Of a stretch of DNA of 26,054 nucleotides, positions 1 through 24,749 are shown one piece after another (within the stretch, counting starts at the first letter, position 1; the number at the start of each line of letters is the position of its first letter). The notes below the pieces were generated by a model that was not told the origin of the DNA, did not search any database, and saw nothing but the letters and a program-made list of their open reading frames with translations. The position numbers were made by a program, and so were the translations under genes. This DNA is from Chromera velia (Eukaryota > Sar > Chromeraceae), in NCBI GenBank assembly GCA_018398765.1, contig JAHBMJ010001792.1:1-26054 (forward strand), written 5' to 3'.

Positions 1-10
1 CGGCCCCACC

Positions 11-472
11 AGCACCGTCGCTCTTTCGGTATGGGACTTTGAGAGTTTCGTTACCGCCGAAAGAGTCCTCCCGCAAGATACGAAGACACAGCATCAGAAG
101 AACCCCCCTCCGCAGGGACGCCCCCCCACCCCCCCACCCCTGTCTAAAGACCATGACGGTGCCGGTCCCCACGTGCAGTTTTCCTTCTTTTTTTCTTTTT
201 TCTTTTTTTATGTGTTTGAGTTTTCTTGTCTTGTCTTTTTTTCTCTTCTTTGTCTTGAGTGGAAGCAGCAGAGGAGTAGCGTGTGAAACCAGTGATCACG
301 TGAAAGTCTGTCGGGAGGTGGAGAGGCAAGGGGCGCTTAACTCTCACCTTTCGGGCCCCCTGCCCACGTTGTTTGATTGTTGGTGCTGTTCTTTTGTCTT
401 TGTTCTTTCTTTCTTTTTGTCTGTTGTGTTCACGAAGAAAAAGAGGGAAGAGAAGAAGAAACATATAGTCTG
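11..472 (+). repeat. Copy A of a long-range inverted duplication
   Basis: This stretch is repeated in opposite orientation at 17822-18285. The match includes an uninterrupted identical run of more than 100 bases (about 252-367 here); differences elsewhere are substitutions and small indels concentrated in T- and C-rich tracts. Open frames in this copy give the same peptide as the other copy, but conservation is uniform across frames and includes a frameshifting indel near position 45, so it reads as recently duplicated non-coding DNA, not a conserved protein. The other copy lies in an intron of the p47-like gene. Similarity starts about 10 bases inside the window edge, so the left boundary seems to be real. 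Confidence 0.85.
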
Positions 473-590
473 TCTGTCTGTCTGTCTGTCTGCCTGTCTG
501 CCTGTCTGTCTGTCTTTCTGTCTTTTTTTCTTTTTTCTTTCTTTTTTTCTTTCTTTCTTTTTTTCTTTCTTTCTTTCTTTCTCCCTTGTT
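468..590. repeat. TCTG and TTTC microsatellites
   Basis: A (TCTG)n run with TCTGCC variants at about 468-515 is followed by a T-rich (TTTC)n tract to about 590. It begins exactly where similarity between the two copies of the inverted duplication ends, so it may mark or have caused the breakpoint. No coding content. Confidence 0.85.
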
Positions 591-779
591 TTTTTCCCTT
601 CAAAGTTCTTTTTCTTTCTTTGTATGAGTTTGAGTCTTACTTTGATTATTAAGTTTGATAGCGTGAGTAAAGTTTGATTCAGATTTATTTGTATCTTTGC
701 CGCAATTAATGGCCCCTGGGTGTCATTCTAACGCATATGTCTAAGCCAAAATTCAATCAATAAACTAGTTAAGAAGTCT

Positions 780-815
<36 letters not shown>

Positions 816-1368
816 GAATATTTTTTAGAGCTAGTTTTGGAGTAGAAAATGTAAAGTGAAGCTAGTGCACGGCGATACACCAATGTACCTTAAGTGATAA
901 GTAATAAGTTCCGATTTTTTGATTGATTGATCGTGAGTCATGATTTAGACTTTGAATTGAATTAATTGAATTCATAATAAAAATTTAGACGATTTAATGT
1001 ACTAATATATAATTTAACCACAATAATTATACTAACAATTATATCTTATCATGCCAGTGGCTAATTAGTTTTTCTGTTTTAATAGCTTTTAAGTTTTTCC
1101 TTTTAATTTTAAAAAAAAGGAGGATTGCCTAGAGGATTACGTGGCAGATTACATTATATAAGTGTAAACTAAGGATGACTGGCTTTATTTTAGATTATAC
1201 CATCATGGATTTCAAATTTTTCAAAAGTTAAAAAACTGTTTTTGAAACTTGAAATAAACTCTGTCAAGGCTGGTAATAAGGCCAATAACTAAATCAAATG
1301 ATTTTAAACTTATTGTTATTCTTCGTTTCCTGGAGATTGTATTCAAGTTGTAAGTGGAAACTGTTGAA
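591..1368. other. AT-rich intergenic DNA with (TA)15
   Basis: No gene is seen. The stretch holds a perfect TA dinucleotide run at 783-812, many short ATTGA/TTAAT motifs, and A- or T-runs. It lies downstream of the minus-strand dynein assembly factor gene, whose stop codon is at 1371-1369, so its right end probably includes that gene's 3' UTR and polyadenylation region. Confidence 0.6.
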
Positions 1369-4300
1369 TTAGTTGAGTATGTGGGACGACACCTCAACAA
1401 GACTGTCCACTTGTGCGGGAGAGGGGACCGCAGTCTTCTTGTGCTCAGCTTCCGCTTTTTCCTCTCTCTGGACCGAAAGCAGCTCCTCGGCAAGCTCTTT
1501 CGCCTCTCTCTCTGCTTCGGCCGCTTTCTCGTCCTTCAGCAGCTGTTTCAATGCCCAGAGCCTGCACTTATTCGGCAACAAATCGCATGTGCAACTAGGG
1601 TAACAGACTCGGACTTTCGGTGGTGTATGTGCAGGAGGAAAAAACGAGCACATCCGGACAAGAAGAGAAGATTTTGGAAGAGAAAGAAGCTTAGAGCGAC
1701 GGCTTTCGACTGACCAACCAGAAACCAGAAGAAAAGGAAAAATAAACACAGGGACCCAGGGGGGACACGCTTGAATGGCAAAGAGTGAGGGAGGGAATGC
1801 GGACCAGTCCAAGTCAACCCAGCCCCCTTACATGCACTCACTGACTTTCTCTGAGAAGCAGCTGCCATCATCTTCAGAGGCCCTGTAGCGAGTGCCCCTC
1901 CCTGGAGTTCCCTCAGAGCTTGGCCGTGCTCTATCGCCTGCATACATGCATGCACGGAGAAAGGTGGCTGAAGGTTGGAAGGAAGTATGTGGGCTTCTGG
2001 AGAAAGGAAGGGGGATGGGGGAGAAGGCTGGAAGGCAGAAGCAAACTTGGAAGGAAAAAAGAAACCGGAGGAGGAAGGAAATAAATGGACAGCGAGATGG
2101 AAACGAGGAGCCTGAATGAGAGGAAAGAGGGAGAACGAGAAATGGGCACTTGTCGGAAAGGAACACTGTGGAGTAAGAAGAGTGCAGTCCCCGCGTGCCT
2201 TTCTGTAAGGATTTCATTTGCGCTACCTCATTCTTGTGATATAACTTGCAGTGCCTTCAAGCAGGCTGTCCGAGGTATTCATGACAGTGAAGTGCATCAT
2301 GTCAAAGACAGAAAGAAAGAAGCAAGATACACAAACAAACATAGATGGAAGGAAGGCGCCCTTGTCCTGTCCCGCTAGGAAAGCAAAGGAGATGTTCTGT
2401 CTGTCTGTCTTCCTTCCCTTCCCTCACTCCCTTGAGACCCCTTCCGTTCGTCTCTTTCTCTCACTCTCTTACTCCTTCCACCACGATGTGTGTCAGACCG
2501 TGTGAGGGCACGTGTGTCTGTCTGTGTCTGGATGCTTGTCAAGGCTCTTTCTCTAGGTCAAAGCACTATCGGACTGACGAGGTTTGCTTTCGCAACACAT
2601 CCCTGCAGCCTTCCTGTCTTCTGACAGCATAGGGATGCGTTCGCGTGCGCACGAAGGCTGAGGCTCCGGAGCGTTGCAGCCACCTCCCTCGTTTCCTTCT
2701 CAACCTCCACATTTCCCCCCGCAGCTGCAGCCCCACGACGCAACACAGCACTTCTGCGTGCTGCTTCTGTACGTCTGCTGGCTGCCTCCAGAAGAACGAG
2801 GGCGCCCTCAAAGTCCGGAGGGGTGCGTGTCAGACTTGCAGAGGCTGCGGCAAGAACTTCAGAGATCCGCGAAGCTGTGTCCTTAAGGATTTCCGTCTCT
2901 TTGCCGACTCGGTCAGTCCCCTCTTCCGTCTCACCGTCCGAGTCCTCGCTGTCCCCCTCATCCTCGTCTTGTTTCTTCTCCACATTTCTACTCCCCTCTG
3001 TGGAGCCAACAGAGGTCACCGGAACTTCCGGCAGACTTTCAGACGAGGAAGGTTTCCCTACACCCGCAAGAGAGTCTTCCGATTTCGGCAACCCCCCCAA
3101 AGCCGCGGCGTCGACCACTCTGTCCCTCAAACTCCGGGCACTGGGGTTCACGGGCTCTAGCGTCAGGGCCCTCTGCAGGCAGCCATACACAGAATCACAA
3201 TACTTCTGCTTAAGAAGGAATCTGTCTCCCATGCAGTCGTCTTCTCTTCACTAAGCGAAGGAAATTCCGCAAAGGACGAAGACCAAAATTCCATTTGATG
3301 ATGGAGAAAGTCCTGACAGAGTGTTTAAAAAGAAAAAACAAACGAAAGAAATCCAGAGAGCGGTATCTTCTGTCCTAATATCTTCATTCATCCACTGCCT
3401 GCCTGCCTGCCTGACCCTGGCCTCTTCCAGCGCTTCCGGCAGCCGTCCATCAGTCTCCAATGCCGTGCCTCTCCGCATCCGCACCCGAAACTCCAATTTC
3501 CTCCAGGGACGCACCAGAGGATGAGAGGCCGAGGGCTCCGCAAAGCCCTTTCCGCCCTTCGCAACTTCGCTTTTCGGATCAGCGTTCCCTTCGTCATCCT
3601 TCTTCTTTTGCTGTGGGTCCTCATCCTCGACTGCGGCCTTGACCCCTGCGGCTGCGTGCTGCAGGTAGTGGAATGCCGGGGCCCTCCCGGGGCAGAAGGG
3701 GAGATTCCATTTGGAGAGGAGAGAGAGGGTCCGGTCTGAGGTCGCCAGACCCTCCTCTGTCTCTCCCGCCTGCACGAAAAGGAAAAAGGAAAAAACGCAG
3801 CGCCGAAACAGAGAAGGTCAAAGAAGGGCTACACGGACATCTTCGATGGTGAGCTTTTCATTTTCATTCCTCCAAACTTGAAACAATCAGGGTCCTCGGG
3901 GTGCGTGCGTCGATGGAAGAAAGAAAGAAAAAGAGCAACCGCACACGAAAGCTCAATGGAGTCCTTTTGGGATTTCAAGAACCGAGCGAAAGAGAGCGAG
4001 TGAGCTTATCGGAGCCTGCAGACTTCAAGAGGAGTATTCCTCCTTCAAGCGTCTGTTACTCAACACCGCCTCATCTCATTCCTTCTCATCCCGTCCCAAG
4101 CAAGTGGCTGCACGGACACTCCCCAAAACCAGAGATGAATGAACAACTCCCGCAAAGCTTCAACCACCGCGTCGCTAGACACGTGGGGAAGCCTCGAAAG
4201 AGCTGAGCATACACCGCTGGCCAGCGGAACGACCGAGAACAGAGACATGCGAGGGAAGGATGGACGGACAGATGGACGGACAGAGAGGCCAAAGAAGACG

Positions 4301-5337
4301 ATCGATCCGCAGGAGTTACACAGATAGGGATCACCGGCTTTCGCATTCCTCGAAAGGAACAAGCACTTCTTCTTTGGGACTCGGATCACTCACTCACTCT
4401 CTCTTTCTCTTTTCCTTATCGCTTCTCCTTTGCCTTCTCATTCTCATTCTCATTCTCTCTCTCTCTCTCTCTCTCCTTTTTTCCCTTTTTCACCGTCTAT
4501 GGGAGTGCCTTGCAAGTACGATGGAGAAAAAAAAACGGCATGGGCAAAAGACAAAATCAAAAAAGCCACAGCACAATTGATTGACGGACACTCTACCGAC
4601 CTCCAACAAAGCGTGTGACAGATTCGCAAGCAGCACAGGATGATCCCCTCCCGTCTGCAGCGCTGCCTTGTAGAACTCAACAGCGCACCCAGCCAGTCGC
4701 TTGGACTCGAGGAGTGCTTGGTCTCTCTCCCCCTGTGCCTTCTCTCTTCTGTCCGCCTCCGACTTGACTCCCAAGGCCTCCTTCAGGAGGGAATCCCCTT
4801 CTTCCTTCAGGGTTTGGGCACCTTGCAGCCTGCATGTGTTCGTGTATCCATTCGTTCATTTATTCGTCGGGGGAGTTTGAAGGGAAGAGGAATGGATGGG
4901 AAGACAACAAAGTCAGCAACGACGCTTCCTCTGTTTGGTCTGTATTGCAATCTGTCTCTGAAAAACAGACAGGTAGACAGGCAGGCATCTCCGTTTCGGA
5001 CACTAGATGGATTCCTGAAAGAAACTGAGAGACAGGGACGGTGGGGGTACAGCTACAGGTACAGGGGAGCTCATGAGCGTCAGAGAAAAGCAGAAAAGTG
5101 CCAAAATAGGAACAGAAATGTATGTAGAGCATCAAGAAAGGAAATCTGCCTGCCAATGCCGCAGAGGGATGTTCACCTTCCTCCCTCATTGTCTCGCAAG
5201 TTCACTGCGTGACCACACAACTGCTGTCCCCTTCCTCTTTGCTCTTCCATCTTTCGTTCTTTTCTGCCCCCCTCTTCTGCTGCTTTTCCCTGACTTTTCC
5301 TCGTCTCTTTTTTTTGCATTTCCCTTCTCTCTTTGCC

Positions 5338-5376
<39 letters not shown>

Positions 5377-7680
5377 CCCTCCATATCTGGCCTGCCATAC
5401 CTCTCCACTGCCTGGAGGTCTCTGAAGGCTTCCGCCGACTCGTCTCCCGATAGGCCTCCCTGGACGTCTGTCGCCTGTCGGAGATTTCTCAGAGACCTTC
5501 AGAACAGAAGAAAGAAAGAGAGAACAGAACAGAGAGAAGAGAAGAGAAGAGAAGAGAAGGACTTTCCTCTTCCAAGTTGATTCTTTCGAAGGCTTCCCAT
5601 GTCTGAAAGGGCACCTTTTCTTTTATTTCTTTCCACACTAGGCACAGACTGAGAGAGAAAATCACAATCAAACCTTTTTGATCCCTTCTGCACAGATCCG
5701 CTCTTCTTGTTTCACGCGGCTTTGCCCCTTTTTTCAGCATCGGACTCCGGACCAGAAAGAACGATGAAGAAAGCAAGGCGCAAAAAGACAGAAGAACGAC
5801 GGCAGGCAGATCAGAGCGGGAAAGAGAAAGAAATAGAAAACACGAGGTGAAGACGAAAGACAACAATCGAACCAGACCCACCCACCTATCAAAGTCACCC
5901 AACCAGAGAAGGACAACGCCTGCACGCCAATGGACCCGTGCCTTCAGTGCGTTGTCCTGCATCCACATGCAGGCACGAGAGGGCATGAGGGGGCTAGAGA
6001 GGGAAAAGGGCCGACGGAAGTGTCATATGGTGCTGATACAATCAATCGAGGAGATATGCAGACAGATAGGCATCCAGGTCAGAATACAGGTAGACATAAA
6101 CAAGCACCAAAGCACTGGAGGGAAATCAAAAGGCAACAAAGAGAGAGTGAAGGAGTCTGTGTGCCTCCCTGCAAATGCCCCCCCCGTTTTCTCTTTTCTT
6201 CCTGCTACTTAATGCTACCGATGCCCACCTCCGGGTCTGCAGGGGGAGCCGGTTTGTTCTTGTCTCCCCTCTGTTTCATCGCGATGATCTCCAAGGCGAA
6301 CTGGATGTCGTTCAGACACTGCACACAGTTAAACATTAGTTGGAGGAGGGAGACATTGTAAGATGCACAAAAATAAGGCAAAAGCCGAAAGTTTGTCGGC
6401 TAGGTCCGATTGCCAAAACGAAACCTTCAAGGCAAATGACTCAATCGACTAGAAAACTTGATAGACCAATCTTCTTCCCTCTCTCCCCCCCCCCCGACCT
6501 CCTCGAAGTCTCCCAAGTGAAGGCGGCATAGGGATCTGTTTGCAAAGCAGGCAGCGTTGGATGCCTTCAGGAGAGCCTCCGAGTAAGCGTTGACGGCACC
6601 CCTGAAGTCCCCCCGAGATGCCAGAGAATCACCCCTGTCTTTCAACCACACAGGGTCATCAGCTCTTCCCTCCTCTCCCCTCCCTGCACCCGCCTTGACG
6701 TCTTTCGGAAGAGGGGGCTCTCTTTCCTTCCCCTCACGTGCGGGAAGATTCGGGTTCTCCCTCTTGGTGAACTTCAACTCCACTCGGCTGTTGCCCTGCA
6801 TAGCCGCTCCTGGCGAACGGCCTGCCCTTCCGGGGGCAACTTCCTTCTCTCCTTTCTCCTTCTTGTCGTCTTCTGTCTTCTTCTGTGCTACGGCTGGTCT
6901 CTTGCTTCTAGGGGGAGGGAAAATCTCTTTGACTGCCGTTTTGTCATCGTCAAAAATCAAATCAGGATCGCTCTCTTCGGATTCAGAGACCTCAGCTGTC
7001 ATGTCTTCTTCGATTTCTGCTTTTTCTCTCCTCTCCACTCGTTGCTCCTCCTCCACCTCCTCCTCTTCAGATCCTTCGGGGATCTTCTTCAGAGTGTTGC
7101 AGGAGGTCTGCCTGGCATTCCATACCTTTGGGGCCTCTGCGTTTTTCCCACCGTAGATGTACTCTTCGGCCGTCCTCCTTTCCACCTCCTTCTGGCCGTC
7201 TATCCATTCCCTGACCTCCCTGTCCAACTTCCATTGGTCGTTCTGGGCCTTGGATATGTTCTCATGCTTCAGACTGCTGCGTCTGCGATCTTTCTCAGCA
7301 GACCACTCGGCCTGCTCTGCTATGGAGGCCTTTCTTCTCTCTGCAATCTCTTGGCGGGATAGCGCGGCAACGGATATGGCGTCGTTTTGGAAGGCAACGT
7401 TGGGCTCGAGCTTGAACCCTCCCCATAGACCCTGGCTGTTTGGATTCTTGGGAATCGACAGCTGTACGATCCCCGCATTGATCTTCACAGTCGTCGCACC
7501 ACTCGAAAAGTCGACATCGCCCCGCAGGTCTGCGTCCCAAAAGTAAGGAGCACTGTTGACTTTCAGGTAGTGCCTGCTGATGAGAACGTCGGCCTTCTTT
7601 GAGGAGATGCCGGGGATCTTCAGAGTGAAGGAGAGGACCGAGGGGGTCTCTGCGAATGTGATCTGTGTTGGCAGGACCAT
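1369..7680 (-). CDS. DNAAF4: DNAAF4/DYX1C1-like dynein assembly factor, CS domain plus extended TPR region
   Basis: Predicted cytosolic co-chaperone that helps preassemble axonemal dynein arms with HSP90/HSP70. Exons on the minus strand: 7680-6499, 6318-6229, 5956-5882, 5474-5401, 4829-4601, 3769-3416, 3172-about 2599, 1937-1832, 1561-1369. Residues 1 to about 85 form a CS (p23-like) domain starting MVLPTQITFAET. A charged linker follows, then a DYX1C1-like segment (RVELKFTKRENPNLP) and a first TPR array from residue 341 (DDPVWLKDRGDSLASRGDF...). Exons 5-9 add two more TPR groups, for example LLANLSHALLEAGETEEGLA and LPEALEEARRALTLEP, plus an acidic linker and a helical tail ending SSHILN. 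Reading phase matches at every junction. The exon 3 donor and exon 7/8 junction are least certain. Total is about 957 residues against about 420 in human. Exons 1-4 are secure; the C-terminal extension is inferred from phase and TPR continuity. Confidence 0.85.
4445..4474. repeat. CT-rich microsatellite in DNAAF4 intron 5
   Basis: ATTCTC units run into a (CT)n tract of about 12 units. It lies between exons 5 and 6 of the dynein assembly factor gene, so its transcript is GA-rich. Confidence 0.85.
5341..5374. repeat. (AC)17 microsatellite in DNAAF4 intron 4
   Basis: A perfect AC run sits 27 bases downstream (in the gene's direction) of the exon 4 donor at 5400. In the transcript it is a GU run. 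GU-rich tracts just after a donor are known splicing-regulator binding sites in animals; any role here is inference. Confidence 0.9.
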
Positions 7681-8249
7681 CTTTGCTTACAGCAGCACGA
7701 AGGAATTTCAATCAAGAAGGCAACTGCAATGAAGAATGCCACCTGGGATTCGTCTCTTGACGTGTTCTGTTGTTGGGACAGATCTCTCTCAAGGGGGATT
7801 CGTTCCGTGGCACTTTTGATGGATTCGGTGGAAATGGTCAGCAGTCAAGTCCCCTTCTACATTGCATCGCTCTGCATGCGCTCTGATTACGAGTACGCTT
7901 GGGACATTTGAGAGTCAAACTGAGACGTGAGTTATTAAATGTTATTAATGTGCGTTCAATGTACTTCTGCAACAGTTGAAAGGTCTTTATGATCGCTCAG
8001 TGTGGTTCAGTCTGAAAGAGGGTGGCGGCGCCAGCGATCGAGTGCGCGGCGGCATGCGGCGGCGCACGATTTGAGGCACGATTATGCCACGATAGCTCAG
8101 ATCGACCCAGAAACTTTTACCTTCACTCGACACCCAAGAGTCTGATCGGTTGATCCTGCGCCGTATAGGGTGTATGTGTATTGCAGTCTCTGTGACCTGT
8201 AGGATCGTTGTGGCTGACTGGAGAAGGCACCAGTTTGTTTGTCTTTTCA
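7681..8249. promoter_or_regulatory. Divergent promoter region between DNAAF4 and the lumenal pentapeptide gene
   Basis: About 570 bases separate the two start codons, which face away from each other, so both promoters must lie here. A GC-rich patch at 8020-8070 contrasts with its surroundings and contains arms GTGCGC (8042-8047) and GCGCAC (8062-8067) around a CGGCGGCATGC core. No TATA box could be assigned with confidence. Confidence 0.5.
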
Positions 8250-11044
8250 ATGCAGTCTGCAAAGGTCTCTTGTACCACCTTTGCTGTGGTGGTGGTGTCT
8301 TGTCTGCTTTCCCCATGTCAAGCATTTCTTGTGAGCCCGCGCCATTTCAAGTTGCGTGTCCCCAGAGCTCTACGGGGAAGTGCTGTGAAAACTTCAGAGC
8401 GGCCGGCCATAGAGGTCCAACTGCAGCGCCAGGAAGATGAACTGGAGGCGCCGTCTCCTACGGGGCCAGAGGAGACGGCTGTCTCCTGTGTCATGAGTGC
8501 AGCGGCTGGAGAATCACGAAGAGAGCAGATCGCGAAGGCCGCCACGGCTGTCTTCGGTCTTGTGCCGTTCCTTCTCTCTGCAGTGGAAGCACAGGCAATC
8601 TCGGGAGGTCGGCAGGACCGGGATGGCAAAGGCGGGGGGGCACTGAAATGTATCCTCCCTCTCTTTAAGGTTTTGGTATTTTTCTTCCTCATTCCTTCAT
8701 TTGTTCCTTCTCTTATGCAGGTGGCAAAGATTATGCTGGAGCGACCATAGCTGGACAGGACTTTTCGGGTTTGTTTTTCGTTTATTTTCTCGCTGAATGG
8801 ATGGAGGGGTTGCCAGGCCGTGTTCTCATTCACTATCCGGACTGGAAAGAAGCTGCAATCATTCTTTTGAAAAGGGCTTCATGTTGAGTTACGTGTGGGT
8901 GTCGCACATGCGAAATGAATACAAAGAAGGGTGGTTGTCTTTCTTTCACGTCGGTCGACTTTGCCCTCAGTCAATTTTTTCCTGCAGGGTACTTGGATTC
9001 TTCTGGTCTGAGCACAGTTTTGTCCGCTTCTCCGTCCCTTCGTCGCGCTGCTCTTTTGTGTGCTTCTGTATGTCACCCGCTCTCTCTCCCTCTCCCTCTC
9101 CCTCTCCCTCTCACACACACAGAGAGAGACAGAGAGGGAGAGAGCGACTAACCTCCTCACTTCTCTGACCATTGAATCTGCCTGTTTTGTCTCTTTGTTT
9201 GCAGGGAAGAGCTACGCAAAAAAAGACTTCTCTGCTTGTCTTGCGGAGGGAACGAATTTCTCCAACTCGAGTGAGTCAGTGGGTAAGCAAGTGAATGGGT
9301 AGGTGGCTTGGTTGGTTAGTGAGAGAGGAATGTGGTTTGTCTGTGGTATTCCGTAACCGCATATAATGGGCGATGGGGCGAGTTTGCAACGTTGTCGGCT
9401 GATAGTTGAGTGGTTGGTTCAGTAGTGGGATTATTTGTAGGGTACGTAAGAGGGGAAGCGAGAAAGTGGGAGGGAATGAAAACATGAGTGAGTGGGAGTG
9501 CTAGTCATGTTAGTGACTCAGGGAAGGAGCAAGCCAGTGAGAGGGTAAGCGGGCGACTGTGCAAGTGCGTGAGTCGGCGAGTAAGTGAGCAACCGAGCGA
9601 CCGAGTGTGTCGGCGAATGAGGGAGTAAATGAAGAAGTGAAATGGGTAAGTGAGGGGCTGAGTGCATGGGTGGGAGTAAGTGAATAGGTGAGGGAGTGCG
9701 CTAGTTGTTCCATAAGTAATTGACAGGTTATAGCGTTTCAAGGTCACCAATGGCCAGTCTCTTCTCGTCCACTCCTGAGCGCTTCATTTGTCCGTCCCCC
9801 CAACCACCTCTCCAGATCTGGTGGGGGCCCGATTCTACAAGGCGTACCTGAGAGACGCAAACTTTGAAGGTCAGTCGACCGTGCAGAGAGAGTGCTGGTC
9901 AAGTCAGACAGGAAGACGGCCAGGGGAGGGAATGGGAAGAGCAGCGAGGGCAACGGCAGCATGGTCACAGAGAGAGAGCCCAAAGCCTGAAACGGCACCG
10001 GGAGTAAGAGAGAAGATGAGCCTCTCGGATGGATAGATGAAAAGTATGCAAAAACATTTTACTCTGTTTGCTTTGTTCGATTTGGTCCGCGCTCTTCCCC
10101 GTTTGTCCGTTTTTTCTTTCTTTCTTTCTTTCTTTTCTTTATTCATTTAATTCTTTCGTTCAATTTTTCCCTTTCTGCTTGCTCCTTTGCTTGTTTGCTT
10201 GTCTCTTCTTTTCTTGCTTGCTTGTTTGCTTGTCTCTTTCTTTCTTGATTGCTTGCTTGCTCGCTCGCTTGCTTGCCCCTTTGCTTGTCTCTTTCTTTCT
10301 TGCTTGCTTGCTCCTTTGCTTGTTTCTTTCTTTTTTTTTTTCTTTTCTTCCTTTTTCGTTCGCTGGTTTGTGCAACGTTCCCTTCGTTCTCTCCTTGATT
10401 CATCCATTCATTCACCCTTGCTATTTTACAGGCTTATGTGCACGTTCGTTTCTTTGCCGGTGGGAACGTTTGTGCATGCAGGTGTGAGTGCTCGGGGTGC
10501 TTCATTTGAACAAGCTGACGTGGGGGGCGTGTCGTTCAAGAATGCCGACGTTTCGGGAGCCTATTTTGCGGCCTCGGAGATCAGCAAAGTGAAGGACATC
10601 GAGGGGGCTGACTTTAGTGAAGCATCGTTGAGGTCGGTGGGTCAGCGGGGTCAGGGGAAGGCGGACAGTGAGCAGTTCAGTCGGCATTTTGAGGACTGCC
10701 CTCTGCATTTTTGAGGCTGTTCATAAGTGTGTGTGTCAGTCTGTGTCGCTCCATGTTCCTTTCCATGCTGTTCGTGTCTATCGAGAGGCATGGAGGTTGT
10801 GTCTCCGAATAGCCGGTCCGTGTCCATTCTGCTGGATGGACGGACTAATTTTGCATCATCGTTTCGGTCTCTAACGATCCCTCCGCATGACTGACCTTCA
10901 GAGAGGAATTCCATTCTGTTGCACACACATGCACGTGCATGCAGACCCGACTACTTAGAGGCGCTGTGTAAAAGACCGGACGCGAAGGGCGTGAACCCGA
11001 AGACCGGAGTTTCCACTCGAGATTCCCTCCTTTGTGGAGACTGA
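8250..11044 (+). CDS. Thylakoid-lumen pentapeptide-repeat protein with tripartite plastid targeting
   Basis: Exons: 8250-8649, 8721-8768, 9205-9270, 9816-9869, 10482-10632, 10945-11044; 272 residues. Residues 1-25 are an ER signal peptide ending SPCQA, followed by Phe26, the aromatic residue diagnostic of red-lineage complex plastids. A basic, Ser/Arg-containing transit-like region follows. Residues 89-116 are a twin-arginine lumen signal: SRREQI, a hydrophobic core, then an AQA cleavage site. The mature part has pentapeptide repeats centred on Phe/Tyr/Leu (KDYAGATIAGQDFSG, ARFYKAYLRDANFEG, ARGASFEQADVGGVSFKNAD). Its C-terminal module (ALCKRPDAKGVNPKTGVSTR, then LLCGD) resembles plant and cyanobacterial lumenal pentapeptide proteins such as the TL17/TL20 type, whose function is not settled. 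It should form a right-handed beta-helix in the lumen. Introns 1-4 are phase 1 and intron 5 is phase 2, with correct phase at every junction. Confidence 0.9.
9084..9146. repeat. CCCTCT / CA / GAGA microsatellite cluster in intron 2
   Basis: A (CCCTCT)n run, a short CA run and a GAGA-rich tract follow each other in the second intron of the lumenal pentapeptide gene. The CT-rich and GA-rich halves are partly complementary and could pair in the transcript. Confidence 0.75.
9280..9700. repeat. Degenerate GTGAGTGGG-like repeats in intron 3
   Basis: Most of intron 3 is a drifting array of short units built on GTGAG, GTAAG and GAGTG, many resembling 5' splice sites. No coding content is seen. Confidence 0.5.
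10098..10365. repeat. Pyrimidine-rich tetranucleotide array in intron 4
   Basis: Interleaved TTTC, GCTT and TTTG units (for example GCTTGCTTGCTC and CTCTTTCTTTCTTG) fill much of the intron before exon 5 of the lumenal pentapeptide gene. Long open frames on both strands here are translations of the repeat and are not genes. Confidence 0.8.
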
Positions 11045-15079: not shown

Positions 15080-15836
15080 GTGAGTTGATTGATTATGTGA
15101 AGAGATCCCATCGAACCACAGCCACACGAACAAAACCAAGTGGGCGGCCCAGAAAGGACAGCCAGACGAACGAAGGGTTAGACATACACACAGAAAACCA
15201 TCCTGACGATCAGACAGACAGACCTTCAAGAATTCGGAAGGGGGCGTTCACCGGAGCAACCCTGCAAGCAGAGTCAGAAGCATTCATCGGTCCCTCCTTC
15301 CATTCAACAAGTCAGTCGACCAGTCACGCATTCTACCAGGCACGCAGCTATGTGAGCATTTCACCAACCATGTGACACAAGGACGGACATTGAAAGGCAC
15401 TCTGAACACAATTCCCTCCCCCAAAAGGAATCGAGCTCTGCATCGTTCAGCTTCTTCCACGGTCTCTCCTTTTTCTCTCTCTTCGCATGCTAGTGCAGAT
15501 CCCCCCCCCCCCTTTTTGCCAGCAGACTGACTGACTGACTGACTGTTGCATGTAGGCCCTCAGTTGCCCCACAGTGGCGTCTTGGTTGAACTGTTGGGTC
15601 TGTCTTTGGCCGTTGTGAAATCGAATTTGCACAGACGTGGTGGGACGGTTGGGGTCAACCTGCAGAAAAGAGGGCAGAGCTTGCACCTTCAGTCCACTCT
15701 GGTTTCTCCACGCAGGCAGGCAGGCAGGCAGGCAGGAAGAGGAAGAAGAAGACAGACAGATACATGCGGGAAATGGGAACAAGGAGCGGGAAAGTGAAGG
15801 AAGACATTTTCAGAAAACACCCCTCTTTCTCTCTCC

Positions 15837-15906
<70 letters not shown>

Positions 15907-18900
15907 CGCGCAGTACAGAGGACAGACAGACAGGCAGGCAGACGAAACGATTTCAGCTGGGTCAGACGCGCCAAGAATCAGACAGCTAGGGAGTTAGAAT
16001 GACAGATAGACAGAAAGACAGACCGCCACAGATCCCGCACTTGTGTTCACTGCCCCCGCAGCCGCAGCGCTGCCTCCCCCACCCCTGCAGACAGAAGGAC
16101 AAACAAACAAGACACGCACAGCCTTTGTACCTTACACTACACATGGGCGTCAGCAAGAGCCCTTGTATAGAGAGAGCCGTCCTGTCAGGCCAAAGTAGCG
16201 GGATGCAACTGAGAAGCACGTGAAAGAAAAAAACAAGCATGCGAAAGAACACAGAAAAAGAACTTGATACTAGAAACATGCCATTAAAGGCGAAAAGAAA
16301 AACGGCAGAGAACACGAGGGCGTCTGTACTTCCTCTCAGCATTCCACCCATCCACGCACCCACCCACTCACCCACCCGAGAGTCATCCCTTCACCAGCAA
16401 ACAGTGGACGTGCAGGAACGGGAGCTGGAGCAGAGGAACCCTGGAAGAAGCAGGGGGGGACGGACAGAAGAGACAGGCAGGAGGTGATGACGGCCAAGCA
16501 GAAGAGCAGGTAGGTAAACAAAAACTCCTTTACAGGAGAAAGAATCAAGAAGGACGCAGCCATGCACAGAAGGGGAAGTCGAAGCCAGCGTCACAGAATA
16601 GCCGTACCGTTTGAAGTGACATAAAAATACTGAATAAACTATCCTACTGACAGAACAGACACCCATTCCTCGCTTTCTTCCCCCCCTTTCCCACGCCTCA
16701 AGTGACCTGCCCGCTGCTTCTCGGTGCCGTCCGTGGATCATAATCTTCTCCCCTGCACACACGCACGCACATGTCGAAAACGGGAAGGGAGAGAGGCTCA
16801 TAGGAGAAGACAGACTTTCCTTCTCATTCTTTATTTGTTGCCGGCCGTCAGCGACAGAGGATACGTGCGACTGACTGAAGCTCCGAGCGCCCCAAAGCAG
16901 AAATCAACGAGTGGAGAACAGATGCAAAAGGAGAACTTTTCCACTGCGCTACCTGTTCCATCCACCCCAATCAGAATCGCATCGATCGATCAACCAATCA
17001 AACGAACGCACCGACACACACACCTCTTGTCCACCAGAGCGATGTTGACAGGTCCCGTGGCTCCTTCCGAGAGCTCCTCTGGGGCATACCCCTGCTCGAT
17101 GGCCTTCATGAACTCTTCATTCTGGGGATCTGACCGGGGTCTGAACTCTCCCTCGTCGACTGTGAAACCGTTGCGGTAGCTGCACATTCAGTGCCACACG
17201 AACAACAGAGACAGAGAAAGAAGAGAGAGAAAGGGGAAGCGGGGAGGCGGATGCTGAGAGATCCATGCAGGTTTCTCTCCGGAAGACGCGCCTGAGCAAT
17301 CTGTGCGAGCAAGGATGCATGCGGGCAGCACTCAGAGAGAGAGCAAAAGAGAAGTCGGACACGGGGCGAGGCTTTTCCCCCGAAACTTTGCCTCAAAGGA
17401 GGAGGGAATGGCAGTGGAAGAGCAGGAAACGAAAATAAACCAACTTCGTTGGTCCACAAAGAGACGGACTGACAGGTGGACGGTCCGGTGGTTTTCGGGA
17501 ATGGGGCCTTTCCTGCAGAGAGGGACTTAGAATGAATTCCAGACAGGATGATGGGAATTATGAGTCCAGAGAAAAGACCAAATTTGTTGTCGGAGAAAAA
17601 AAAAAGAGGAACACATCGGGACAGAAACAATGCAGGCACACAGTACCGGATTGAACATCAGGGAGAATGCCACAACGATACAAGAGAAGGAACCAAACCC
17701 ACCAAAAAGCATACCAGTCCGGTCACCTAATGCAAGAGTGACAACCTCTTCACGAAGCAGAGACACAACGCGACTTGACGTATATCTCCGTGATCGGCAC
17801 GTGATGATGTGGATCAACAGAGAGACTATATGTTTCTTCTTCTCCCTTCTTTTCTTCATGAACACAACAGACAAAAAGAAAGAAAGAACAAAGACAAAAG
17901 AAAAGCACCAACAATCAAACAGCGTGGGCAGGGGGCCCGAAAGGTGAGAGTTAAGCGCCCCTTGCCTCTCCACCTCCCGACAGACTTTCACGTGATCACT
18001 GGTTTCACACGCTACTCCTCTGCTGCTTCCACTCAAGACAAGAAAGAGAAGAAAAGAAAACAAGGCAAGAAAAACCAACAAGAATTAAAAATGACAACAA
18101 AACGAAAAAAGAAAACTGCACGTGGGGACCGGCACCGTCATGTTCTTTAGACAGAGGTGGGGGGGTGGGGGGGCGTCCCTGCGGAGGGGGATTTCTTCTG
18201 ATGTTGTGTCTTCGTATCTTGTGGGAGGACTCTTTCGGCGGTAACGAAACTCTCCAAAGTCGCATACCAAAAGAGCGACGGTGCTCAGTTGCTTGAACCT
18301 TCTCTAAAACCTCTTCTCTCTCCTCAGGACTCCTGCTCTGACGGTGAGTCATACGTGGACCCATTGTTTGCGCGCTCGCTGTGGGGTGAAAGGGAAGGGG
18401 CGGATCCAGGTGTGATGGGGGATGGGAGCTCCCCCTCCATCCCTTCTTGGGAGTGTGGGTCTTGATGTTGTTGGTCTGTAGAAACCGGGATGGGGGCGGG
18501 AGCTGGAACGGGTTCGGCAAGGGCGGCTGCACTGGAACTGGAACTGTTCTCATCTATTCTGTGCAATCTTCTTGACTTTCCTGGTGACGATCTTCTCCAA
18601 GGGGGTTGTTGCGGGGGGGCGGGCGGGAGGGGGGGAGGAGGGGGTTCCGAAGAAGATGAAGCAACCGAAATGGCTGAAGGAGATGAAGATATCGAAACGG
18701 CTGGAGGGTGGGCTGGGAGGTGGGCTGGAGGTTCTGCGTTTACTGCTGGGATTGCTGAGGAAGAGGAGGAGGAGGAGGAGGAGGAGGAATGACTGACGAT
18801 ATGGCTCCTCCAAATTCATCGGGGTTCTCCACAGCCAGACCGCTGCAAATCACGGACACAAAAACAGAGAGACAGTGGCAGGTACACCAGGAAGATGTAC

Positions 18901-20312: not shown

Positions 20313-21334
20313 ATGAGTGAGAAGAAGCCAGGACTGAGGACGTCTGAGGACGTGTACAAACGACTTCCCTGGGATTCCCCTTTCCCTGTCGAGTCAGTCA
20401 AGTCAATCGAGTGGGAAGGCATACATCCGATATTCGGTCTGAAAGGGTAAAGGAGCGTCCCCTTTGTCACACAGGCTCTCACCCTTCGCTTTTGTCTTTG
20501 CCACTGTGTGCAGGCATGTCTTTGTTGGTTACCATGACAGAATCAACGGTGAGTGAAGCAGCAAGGGGGGGACGTGTCGATCCGTCTACCTTGAGAAGAA
20601 ATGTTCGTTCAGCTGAGTCTGCTTTTGTGGCCTCAATATATCAATACCAAGTTTGTGCTTTATCTTGTCTCGATTATTCGTCATGTGGACAGATGTATTG
20701 ATCCCTTGCCTTTGTTGATCTCTCGAGCAGGTCCGATGGAAATTGAATTCGAAAAGTTCAGGCCCCAGGATCCCATTCCCTACACACGCATTTTCTATTT
20801 CAGGTAAGTAGATGGACAGATAGAGAGAGGGATGGACCAATGCATTACGCACATCTCGGTGCTCACCTACTCAGTCATCGACTTGTATCTATCCATCCTT
20901 CCACCCATTCATCTATCCATCCCTCCATCCGACGGTCTGCACTCGTTTCCCTTTCTCGTCCTTTTAACACTATTGCTCTCCTATTACGACTGCGCACATG
21001 AATGCGTGCGTGTTCAAATATTCCTGACCTTTTCACACACGAGTGAGTGAGTGCTACTGCTTCTCTCCTCTTGCGACTTCACACGCGAGTCAGTGAGAGA
21101 AGCATTGGTTCTGTCCACTTCGTTTCGTAGTCAGACTTACTGGTTGACTAAGCGACGAACGGACTGCCCGACTGCCTGACTGCAGAACCACTCAACCCGA
21201 GTTCGCCTTCGAGTCGGGTGTCTTTTGGGACAGGAATCGAAGGTCGGTCTCTCCTTTTCTCTCGCACACACACACACACACGCATGCACACACACACACG
21301 CATGCACACACACACACACATACACACACATACA

Positions 21335-21381
<47 letters not shown>

Positions 21382-21393
21382 GAATGTGCGCAT

Positions 21394-21433
<40 letters not shown>

Positions 21434-24400
21434 AGGTGCGCTCTCCTGGTGCAGGTACGACCTCTTGTTCCGTTCTGGTGACACTGCTGAGATTCTCAGC
21501 GTCTTCGAGAAGTACGCACAGAGGGCAAAAATCTCCAGACCGATTCTCACTGCTGACGGAGAGCCCTCTGAGACTTTTGTCCCTCCACAGCCCCCCAAGC
21601 TCTCCGATCGTGACAGATACATGTTCTCTGTTCAAATGGAAGGTATCAAGAAGACACGGGAGGCCATCGCGCTCTCATTTGAGAACGAGGAGAATGCCCT
21701 TGTGAGGAAACGGATGCCTCGCCCTGAAGTCACTCTCACATCCTCTGAGGAGGAGCCTTCAGCAGGAGAGGACGTCGACATGACACCCGTCCCTGAGACC
21801 GCTTCCTCTTCTTCAGCTTCGGCTTCTAATACTCAACAGGCAGAGGGTGGAAAGGAGGGTTGTGCCCCTCCCTCTGCACCTGCAGCTGCCCCCCCTGCCC
21901 CCCGGTCTGTTGCCCTGATTCCTTTGGGACCCGAGAAGGCGAAGGCCATTTCCAAAAAGATGAGTTGGATCCTCCGACACGGGGCCAACCAGGTCGGACT
22001 GTCGATGCGCTCCGACGGCTTCGTTTTGATGAGAGACCTCTTGGCACTTCCAAATTTCAAGGGAGTCCTTGAGGGAGCAGTCAGACTCGTCGTTGATCGG
22101 GACGAGAAGACCAGATACACAATCAGAGAAGAGGACGGGAAGACATGGTGAGTCAGTCGGCTGGTGAGTGGGTTGGACGATTAGATGAGAGAAGATGCAT
22201 GGGTCCGCCTGTAGAGTCTGTCGTCTGACATCTCAGAGGACTTTCTTTTAGAATAAACGTGAAGATGGACCCGAAGACATCAGGGATTGAAAAGCGAAAC
22301 GTAACACGAAACCATCGATTTCCCCGTCTTGTCTTGAAAACATCTCCTGTTGCACATGATGCTGCTCAAAAAGGGCTTAAATTCAAAGCACCTTAAATCA
22401 AAAACCGTTCGCCAAATCTTTTCCGGATTGCATGACTGTTTGTGTCTCGCCATTTGTTGACCTATCTATATATGTTCCTCTCGTTCCCTCATTCCTTTTA
22501 CTTTGACCTTTTTCATTTCTCCTCAGGATCCGCGCCAACCAGGGCCACTCTGCGCACATGAAGGTGGAGGAGGAGGGTATGTTGACCCGAGTAAACGAGG
22601 CCTCCCAACTGCCTGTGTGTGTACACGGTACGCGGTCTGTTGCTCTTGAAGGAATCATGAAGGACGGGCTGCTTCCGATGGGAAGGAAACACGTCCACTT
22701 TGCACAAGGGCTTCCGGGTGCTGATGGCGTCATCTCTGGCATGAGGCAGAGTGCCGATGTGGTGATTCATCTGGACGTCCAGAAAGCCATGAAGGCTGGC
22801 GCCGTGTTTTTCCTTTCGGACAACGGTGTGGTCCTCTCCGACGGCGTTGGGGGTCAGGGCTTCTCTCCTGAGTTCTTTTTGAAAGTCGAAAGGAGAGAAG
22901 TGACGAGAAACGTGCCTCCGAGAACGGAGGAGACAGGTGAAAGAGGAGGGGGTCCTTCGGTTGGAGCCCAGAGGGGGGGGAAGGGAAGAAGATGGGGAGG
23001 CTCTAAGGGGTCAGCAGACGCGGCGGCTGGCTCTGCTGCTGTTGTTGCGCCCTCTGCTTCTTCTTCCGGTCTAGTTCCTCATCCTCATGCAGCCGCTTCG
23101 ATCTGTGAGGGCCCCTTTGAGTTCCTCGTCCTTGACTTTGAGGCGACATGCATCGAGGGGCAGAAGATTGATCCTCAAGAAATCATTGAATTTCCTGTCA
23201 GTCAGTCAGAGAGTTAAGGGAGTGAGCGAGTGAGTCTGTCTGTCAGTCAGTCAGTCAGTGGGTTGTGCAGGCAAGAAACGCAAAAACACAATGAGAAAAG
23301 CAGTCATTTTAGACGAGTATCAAGAGTACTTCGATGATTGAGTTGTTCTTGTGGAAGTTTTGCTTTCTCTTGGGGGCATTCAGACAATCCCGTGGACGAA
23401 CCCGAAGAGAAGAAAACATATGCCTAGAGAAGGAGACTAAAGGAACTGCGGAGACAGTGACAATGAAAGGGTGCGCACATCCATTGAACGCTCTGTGCGC
23501 CTACCTGAGTGCGGTGCATGATTGAAGTGGATTCCTGATCAACACCAAAGTTGATGTATGAAAGTCGTGGTGGCGTGATTTTGTGCTTGCATGCAGGTAG
23601 TTCCCGTCTCCTCTGACGCCACGCGGCCTCCCTGGAGGTATGAGGACACTGCAGGGCAGATCAGAAATCTGCACTTCCACTCCTACGTGAGACCTGAGCA
23701 TTTCCCCGAGCTGTCTGAGTTCTGCACTAACTTGACGGGCATCCAACAGGAAACAGTCAACGCAGCACCCCCTTTCAGAGAGGTATTCGCATCATTCTGT
23801 GACTGGATGGCCAAGCGTGGTAGCGATGTGCAGAAGCCCTTCGCATCTGCCATCTCTGAACCTGTCGAGGCCCGGGTTCCCTATGTGTTCGTGACTTGTG
23901 GGGACTTCGACGTCAGGAGCTGTCTGAAGCAGCAGTGCAGGACTGCAGGCGTGCAGTGCCCCCCTGGGGTTGCGTGCTACGTAAACATGAAGAGGGTGAG
24001 TAGAATGAATGAAGAGAGCTAGGCGGTCTGGCCTCTTTGGTCTCCTTGCATCTGTTTGTCTTTGGGCGTTTTTCAGCCTTTCAGTCAACTGTTCGATTTT
24101 TATCTGCTCGTTCACATGGTCTCCCGCTTTTGTTCCTGTGCGTGGTGCAGTGTGTATATGCTGGCTTTGTCGACGTATTGAATTGACGAGCGGCTTTATT
24201 TGCCTTTCTTTCTTTGTTGCAGGTGTTCTCTGAATTGATGGTAAGAGAGTCCAACGGGATGGAGCACATGCTGGGAGTTTTGGGGCTCGAGTTGGAGGGC
24301 AGGCACCATTCGGGAATTGACGACGCAAAGAATCTTGCTCGAGTGTGGATTGCACTTATGGAGTCAGTCAGAGACAGCCAGGTTGCAATGCTTTTCTTCG

Positions 24401-24749
24401 ATTCATCATTTAGTTTTGCCCGAGTGGTTAGGTCCAGAAGTTGGTGTGCAGACAGAGATAGCACGTGAAGACGAATCGGTGCAAGTCCTTCTGCCCCTCT
24501 GACGGGCTGGATTTTTTGAATAAGTGCTATCCAGGCTCTTGAACGAAGAGGTTGATCGCGAAGGGAAAGGATACATGCACTCAGTTTCATTGCAGCTGTC
24601 ACTCCCTCTATCTGCAGGCGCTTCCCAGTCCTCCGAACACGAGCAGGCGTCTTGCGATACGTGACTACAGTGAAAATGCCAACTGTTTCAGCGTAAAGAC
24701 TCTCAAGAGTTCGCTGGAGAACTCTGTGAGCTCTAGCTTGGATGGTTGA
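20313..24749 (+). CDS. MJ1316 - KptA/Tpt1 2'-phosphotransferase - ERI1-like DEDDh exonuclease fusion
   Basis: Exons: 20313-20446, 20514-20548, 20731-20803, 21455-22147, 22527-23196, 23597-23995, 24223-24366, and a last exon from 24618. Residues about 9-90 form an MJ1316 domain ([44 protein letters not shown]), predicted to bind RNA ends with cyclic phosphate. Residues about 240-420 form KptA/Tpt1, which moves an RNA 2'-phosphate to NAD+: [12 protein letters not shown] (R255, H256), IRANQGHS (R314), VCVHGTR (H345), GRKHVHFA (R365), [10 protein letters not shown]. After a Gly/Ala/Ser-rich linker comes an ERI1-type 3'-5' exonuclease: LVLDFEATC (D515, E517), TCGDFDVR (D640), [12 protein letters not shown] (H697, D702), completing the DEDDh set. 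Phase matches at all junctions through 24366. The end is ambiguous: direct splicing gives stop 24747-24749 (759 residues); inserting a 16-base microexon (24535-24550) gives stop 24662-24664 (736 residues). No targeting peptide is seen, so probably nuclear or cytosolic. Confidence 0.9.
21265..21431. repeat. Long (CA)n microsatellite just upstream of exon 4
   Basis: About 165 bases of CA repeat with CATG and TA interruptions end 23 bases before exon 4 of the RNA-end enzyme gene, taking the place where branch point and polypyrimidine tract are expected. His/Thr and Cys/Val polymers translated from it are not protein. Confidence 0.95.

Follow-up and report, generated by a model that had tools for sequence, protein, structure and literature searches.

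The window analyzed here, the whole 26,054-nucleotide stretch of Chromera velia contig JAHBMJ010001792.1 (assembly GCA_018398765.1), carries one gene on the + strand that encodes a predicted three-domain fusion protein, with MJ1316-like, KptA/Tpt1 and ERI1-type exonuclease domains in succession. The fusion is confirmed at the genome level: the first-pass annotation of this DNA had proposed three successive domains on exons joined in phase, and both the splice phases and the Pfam matches bear this out. Judged from its domains and residues, the protein might process RNA ends by removing a 2'-phosphate and then trimming in the 3'-5' direction, a reading that we favor but hold tentatively.

Gene structure

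In the first-pass model, a protein of 749 amino acids (aa) is encoded by seven exons separated by six GT/AG introns, all in phase, and the gene is free of N. The feature had been drawn to position 24749; the coding region ends at 24468. The exons, with residues in the numbering of that model, are as follows.

20313-20446 (first-pass form, donor GTAAAG) or 20313-20410, + strand: exon 1, start of the MJ1316-like domain
20514-20548, + strand: exon 2, MJ1316-like core (VFVGYHDR)
20731-20803, + strand: exon 3, MJ1316-like core, IPYTRI motif with Thr75 where prokaryotic relatives have His
21186-21242, 57 nucleotides (nt), + strand: candidate mini-exon, possible tail strand of the MJ1316-like domain
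21455-22147, + strand: exon 4, linker and first part of KptA (R255, H256, R301)
22527-23196, + strand: exon 5, rest of KptA (R314, H345, R365), linker and exonuclease start (D515, E517)
23597-23995, + strand: exon 6, exonuclease (D640)
24223-24468, + strand: exon 7, exonuclease end (H697, D702) and stop codon (24466-24468)

The introns lie inside domains, and homology continues across them. Exon 5 holds the second KptA half together with the beginning of the exonuclease in a single open frame, and exon 4 is open from just past the MJ1316-like match into KptA. For exon 1, an alternative donor (GTGGGA at 20411) is also in phase and shortens the protein by 12 residues; a gene model using it would score better, with 29.0 instead of 26.9 bits for the Pfam MJ1316 match and 86 instead of 75 for the alignment to an actinobacterial relative (L286, introduced below).

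KptA/Tpt1 and exonuclease domains

The middle part of the protein is matched by Pfam PTS_2-RNA (PF01885) at residues 244-418 (E 3e-54; 184.2 bits against a cut-off of 26) over positions 4-177 of the 177 in the profile, and its nearest solved structure is 7yw2, "tRNA 2'-phosphotransferase 1" (7.5e-36). An essential Arg-His-Arg-Arg tetrad is described for Tpt1, with Arg16, His17 and Arg64 named for RslTpt1 (PMC6333775), and Tpt1-R138A served as the inactive form of the yeast enzyme (PMC6456296). From the positions of these residues in the aligned chains (16, 17, 64 and 119 of 7kw8; 23, 24, 71 and 138 of 7yw4), the tetrad here corresponds to R255, H256, R301 and R365 and is complete. The KptA signature put forward earlier (R255/H256, R314, H345, R365) is correctly numbered, but R314, the arginine of IRANQGHS, is conserved in three of four aligned sequences and lies outside the tetrad, to which R301 belongs instead. 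In the mechanism that we favor, NAD+-dependent removal of a 2'-phosphate by the KptA part would come first.

The last part is matched by Pfam RNase_T (PF00929) at 512-709 (E 5.1e-20; 73.1 bits against a cut-off of 24). Its closest solved structures are entries for ERI3, ERI2 and ERI1, the nearest being 7k05, "ERI1 exoribonuclease 3" (3.3e-30). The DEDDh set is complete (D515, E517, D640, H697 and D702), each residue at the number first given for it, and the equivalent positions D7, E9, D132, H189 and D194 are invariant in a five-row exonuclease alignment.

MJ1316-like domain and a candidate exon

The N-terminal domain appears to be a divergent relative of MJ1316 and is the weakest of the three domains. 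Profile searches found KptA and the DEDDh exonuclease clearly, and MJ1316 (PF04457) was matched in the whole protein at 45-83 below the cut-off of 26.3 bits (21.6 bits, E 3.6e-4) and in the N-terminal 173 aa alone above it (26.9 bits, E 7.8e-6). The reversed N-terminal segment (an approximate copy of 160 letters) gave no Pfam match. A search for PF04457 itself gave matches in 37 of the 227 genomes searched from an archaeal phylum and in 2 of 396 from an actinobacterial one, the latter supplying two relatives, L286 and L287. Against L286 the first-pass model reached a local alignment score of 75, which the alternative donor raised to 86 and the further addition of the candidate exon to 95; the best of 1000 shuffles lay at 43 to 49. 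Against L287 the same three models scored 55, 65 and 72, values that none of 1000 shuffles reached. A profile of these two sequences placed the window domain at the top in each of its four models, at 21.2-24.1 bits against at most 5.6 bits for 2000 shuffles. Because the actinobacterial alignments and profile go beyond shuffled sequences, the domain appears to be a divergent MJ1316 relative nearer to the actinobacterial form. The Trp, upstream Arg and Ile that are invariant in a 23-row alignment (five divergent archaeal rows omitted) are kept. So are the P and R of a P-x-H-R motif that is conserved in the prokaryotic sample and is not known as family-defining; its His is replaced by Thr75, and for this reason we call the domain MJ1316-like and do not assume that it senses cyclic-phosphate ends. 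Such sensing by MJ1316 is itself a prediction by others.

A 57-nt exon at 21186-21242 (acceptor CTGACTGCAG, donor GTCGGT) may have been missed in the first-pass model. After IPWHRV, actinobacterial MJ1316 members have a strand such as GEVVWDR, and that model is without one. Intron 3 offers 27 in-phase mini-exon candidates of 15 to 150 nt, two of which (acceptors 21153 and 21186, with a common end) encode GVFWDRNR immediately before the RYDLLFRSG of exon 4. The best score among the 27 goes to the 21186-21242 candidate, with L286 (95, next 91, and 86 without a mini-exon) as well as with L287 (72, next 71, and 65 without). Since its lead amounts to only 4 and 1 points, respectively, we grade it a candidate, down from probable. 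Pfam does not favor it (28.4 bits with the exon and 29.0 without, both with the alternative donor; 26.2 bits with the exon and the first-pass donor), and three other in-phase mini-exons at the same place score 28.1, 26.5 and 25.9 bits, values so nearly equal that Pfam is unable to choose among mini-exons. Combined with the alternative donor, the candidate would give a protein of 756 aa; should it be real, 20803 and 21455 would not be joined directly. Human LENG9 presumably has a similar tail. A DNA pattern for a tail motif of eukaryotic members picked out two viral stretches, in which no frame carrying the motif was seen.

RNA-repair genes elsewhere in the genome

The source genome (177.8 Mb in 4040 contigs) was searched for related functions. 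Matches to RtcB-type ligase lie on four contigs, two genes have an RNA_ligase domain (PF09414), and a 2H phosphodiesterase gene is present. The yeast-type tRNA-ligase domains PF08302 and PF09511 gave no match in this genome, a result that is uninformative because the control genomes were equally without one. Searched exon by exon, the genome gave no PF04457 match at E 0.001. An RNA_ligase-domain protein with an Rnl2-like C terminus (below the cut-off) is encoded by an open reading frame (ORF) at 388-2559 of L184 (C3952:58704-62284); by eye its 370-aa N-terminal part, which has no Pfam match, resembles a degenerate DEDD exonuclease, and this is possibly a second exonuclease-repair fusion in the genome.

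Two further loci resemble parts of the window gene. A second KptA piece (L013, C1459:77000-86900; ORF 1-2640, minus strand) is readable only over the last 39 profile positions; it is followed by an open frame of ∼840 aa rich in simple sequence, and on its 5' side it meets a long run of N. Another ERI1-like gene (L015, C372:1-9000; ∼2060-5719, minus strand) matches with 37% identity over 75 residues (E 4.8e-4) and by eye has CCCH-like zinc-finger repeats upstream.

Proposed mechanism and alternatives

The simplest reading that uses every part of the protein is, we infer, one of unblocking followed by trimming. The MJ1316-like domain would serve to dock the protein, either at RNA ends or on a partner; KptA, using NAD+, would remove the 2'-phosphate at an end opened by a 2H enzyme or at a ligated junction; and the exonuclease would trim a 3' end otherwise blocked by that phosphate. 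ERI1 presumably requires free 2' and 3' hydroxyls; a literature search on the end requirements of ERI1 returned nothing on the subject. A 2H enzyme is described as converting a cyclic phosphate to a 2'-phosphate that KptA then removes (PMC9503650) and, given the 2H gene noted above, a route able to feed the fusion exists in this genome. In yeast, a 2'-phosphate is reported to stop the exonuclease Xrn1 (PMC6456296). The few loci with neighboring KptA and ERI1-like exonuclease genes, and the actinobacterial MJ1316 joined to EEP-family and 2H domains, both described below, also speak for this reading. A bolder version, in which a single polypeptide recognizes damaged RNA 3' ends, unblocks their 2'-phosphate with NAD+ and trims them at once, as a self-contained repair-or-decay machine fusing what are neighboring genes in some viruses, is possible but rather doubtful. 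For taxa that lack a fungal-type RNA ligase, the role of Tpt1 is described as not obvious (PMC6333775). That Tpt1 occurs naturally fused to an exonuclease suggests that making 2'-phosphate ends ready for trimming or decay may be among its tasks, and this one protein would allow the idea to be tested directly.

Several results weigh against the unblock-then-trim reading. Xrn1 is a 5'-3' nuclease and not ERI1, so that the yeast precedent establishes the principle for another nuclease. Support from gene neighborhoods is thin: among 160 KptA loci (the best 80 of 139 viral and the best 80 of at least 577 prokaryotic), an ERI1-like exonuclease frame occurred in the fetched flank of only five (4/80 viral and 1/80 prokaryotic). 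Of the four viral cases, three seem to be related to one another, which reduces the independent cases to perhaps three, and in two further viral contigs KptA and exonuclease genes are both present but far apart. When the search started from the exonuclease, KptA was recovered in 4 of the 67 loci found in viruses, and the contigs were the same four. None of the 160 KptA loci showed MJ1316, and the flanks of 31 MJ1316 loci (up to 1.5 kb) showed neither KptA nor an ERI1-like frame. The MJ1316 assignment is also strained on the archaeal side. With a profile of 31 archaeal sequences (31 loci used out of the 37 matches in 227 genomes), the window domain scored 2.4 bits and ranked 65th of 2002 entries, 2000 of them shuffles, from which it is not told apart, and its first-pass form ranked 398th; with the two actinobacterial sequences added to the profile, the domain came second (6.2 bits) behind a shuffle at 8.3 bits. 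Alignment to the archaeal L188 scored 29-33, a range reached by 47 to 172 of 1000 shuffles. The His that Thr75 replaces is present in all 33 prokaryotic sequences (26/26 rows of the archaeal alignment, five archaeal sequences outside it, L286 and L287).

The first-pass annotation had instead proposed quality control of ligation, the MJ1316-like domain sensing cleaved ends, KptA cleaning the 2'-phosphate from the ligated junction and the exonuclease destroying failures. The fusion on which that proposal was built stands; its mechanism is conjectural and is weakened by the RtcB matches on four contigs and by the lost MJ1316 His. RtcB ligation needs no 2'-phosphotransferase, and no yeast-type tRNA-ligase domain was matched, in a search whose controls likewise gave none. 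In its favor are the two PF09414 genes, together with reports that Tpt1 removes the 2'-phosphate left by the ligases of yeast and plants (PMC3400036) and that yeast HAC1 mRNA keeping its 2'-phosphate is cleaved and degraded (PMC6456296). On balance, we consider ligation quality control unlikely, though deserving of attention. ERI1 trims the 3' ends of rRNA, histone mRNA and small RNA, and the exonuclease could be the working part of the fusion in such a role, with KptA and MJ1316 merely handling unusual 3' ends. The closeness to ERI3, ERI2 and ERI1 structures and the intact DEDDh residues agree with this; the ERI1-like gene on C372, however, may cover the classical role, and we regard the idea as improbable.

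It is also conceivable (although very improbable) that the fusion is an artefact of the gene model, with neighboring genes or alternative transcripts giving separate proteins. The model rests on genomic sequence, and its MJ1316-like part is spread over three or four small exons. Against this stand exon 5, which is common to KptA and the exonuclease, exon 4, whose frame is open from shortly beyond the MJ1316-like match on into KptA, and introns that are all GT/AG and in phase. Only a faint chance attaches to a scheme in which KptA would ADP-ribosylate RNA ends and the exonuclease would remove unmodified RNA: TRPT1 is reported to ADP-ribosylate RNA in mammalian cells (PMC9458441), but no sequence sign favors this activity over 2'-phosphate removal here, and all four residues of the tetrad in contact with the 2'-phosphate junction are present. 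Removal of a 2'-phosphate followed by trimming remains our preferred, if tentative, reading.

Other features of the window

Elsewhere in the window, Pfam matches were obtained in three places.

6430-7686, - strand: weak TPR match, below the cut-off
10151-10711, + strand: pentapeptide repeats
15450-15809, - strand: UBX domain

Positions 11-477 and 17817-18285 form an inverted dispersed repeat of 475 bp with 92% identity.

Comparison with known systems

PMC6514570 states, with reference to another paper, that eukaryotic MJ1316 is found joined to RNA-repair domains in diverse ways. No description of an MJ1316-KptA-exonuclease protein appeared among the papers listed in searches of the open literature. 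MJ1316 fusions to RNA-repair domains are already known, and the combination of MJ1316, KptA and exonuclease is an unusual one of known parts. Across genomes, PF04457 occurred in 1 of 50 genomes holding KptA loci (50 of the 80 loci). With the window's own MJ1316-like domain as query, a viral scan returned no relative, and phage records gave 10 weak matches (E 2 to 3). Among the 160 KptA loci, three frames exceeded 260 aa from stop to stop and were considered as possible KptA fusions; by eye their extra parts are reading outside the gene, and they were set aside.

The closest arrangement of KptA and exonuclease is viral. In L073, the end of KptA at 4531 is followed by an exonuclease that begins at 4533, within a run at 2425-7305 that comprises, in order, a CYTH-like protein (below the cut-off), a UVR-motif protein, an AAA_28 NTPase, KptA, the ERI1-like exonuclease, one frame and a Hen1_N methyltransferase (Pfam); the gene order of L087 at 2457-7317 is similar by eye. 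This run looks like a viral RNA-repair operon. It shares with the window protein the adjacency of KptA and an ERI1-like exonuclease, but the two are separate genes and MJ1316 is missing. In the prokaryotic case (L141, Phormidium), the exonuclease lies ∼200 bases after KptA.

Taken singly, the parts resemble well-known enzymes. Like Tpt1/KptA (TRPT1), the window protein has the full domain with a complete tetrad and 43% identity with 7yw2 over the matched stretch, whereas the KptA frame is at most 260 aa in 157 of the 160 prokaryotic and viral loci and here is flanked by two other domains. With the ERI1, ERI2, ERI3 and KapD exonucleases it shares the complete DEDDh set, ERI3 being the closest solved structure; it differs in that its exonuclease is joined to KptA and an MJ1316-like domain. 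The nearest parallel for the N terminus is L286, where MJ1316, endonuclease/exonuclease/phosphatase (EEP) and 2H phosphoesterase domains lie in one frame (Pfam), with L287 similar by eye. In these proteins, as in the window protein, MJ1316 is fused to RNA-end-processing enzymes, but they carry 2H, which turns a cyclic phosphate into a 2'-phosphate, whereas in the window protein the partners are an exonuclease and KptA, whose substrate is the 2'-phosphate. The same likeness and the same difference apply to LENG9, in which MJ1316 is combined with a 2H-type domain.

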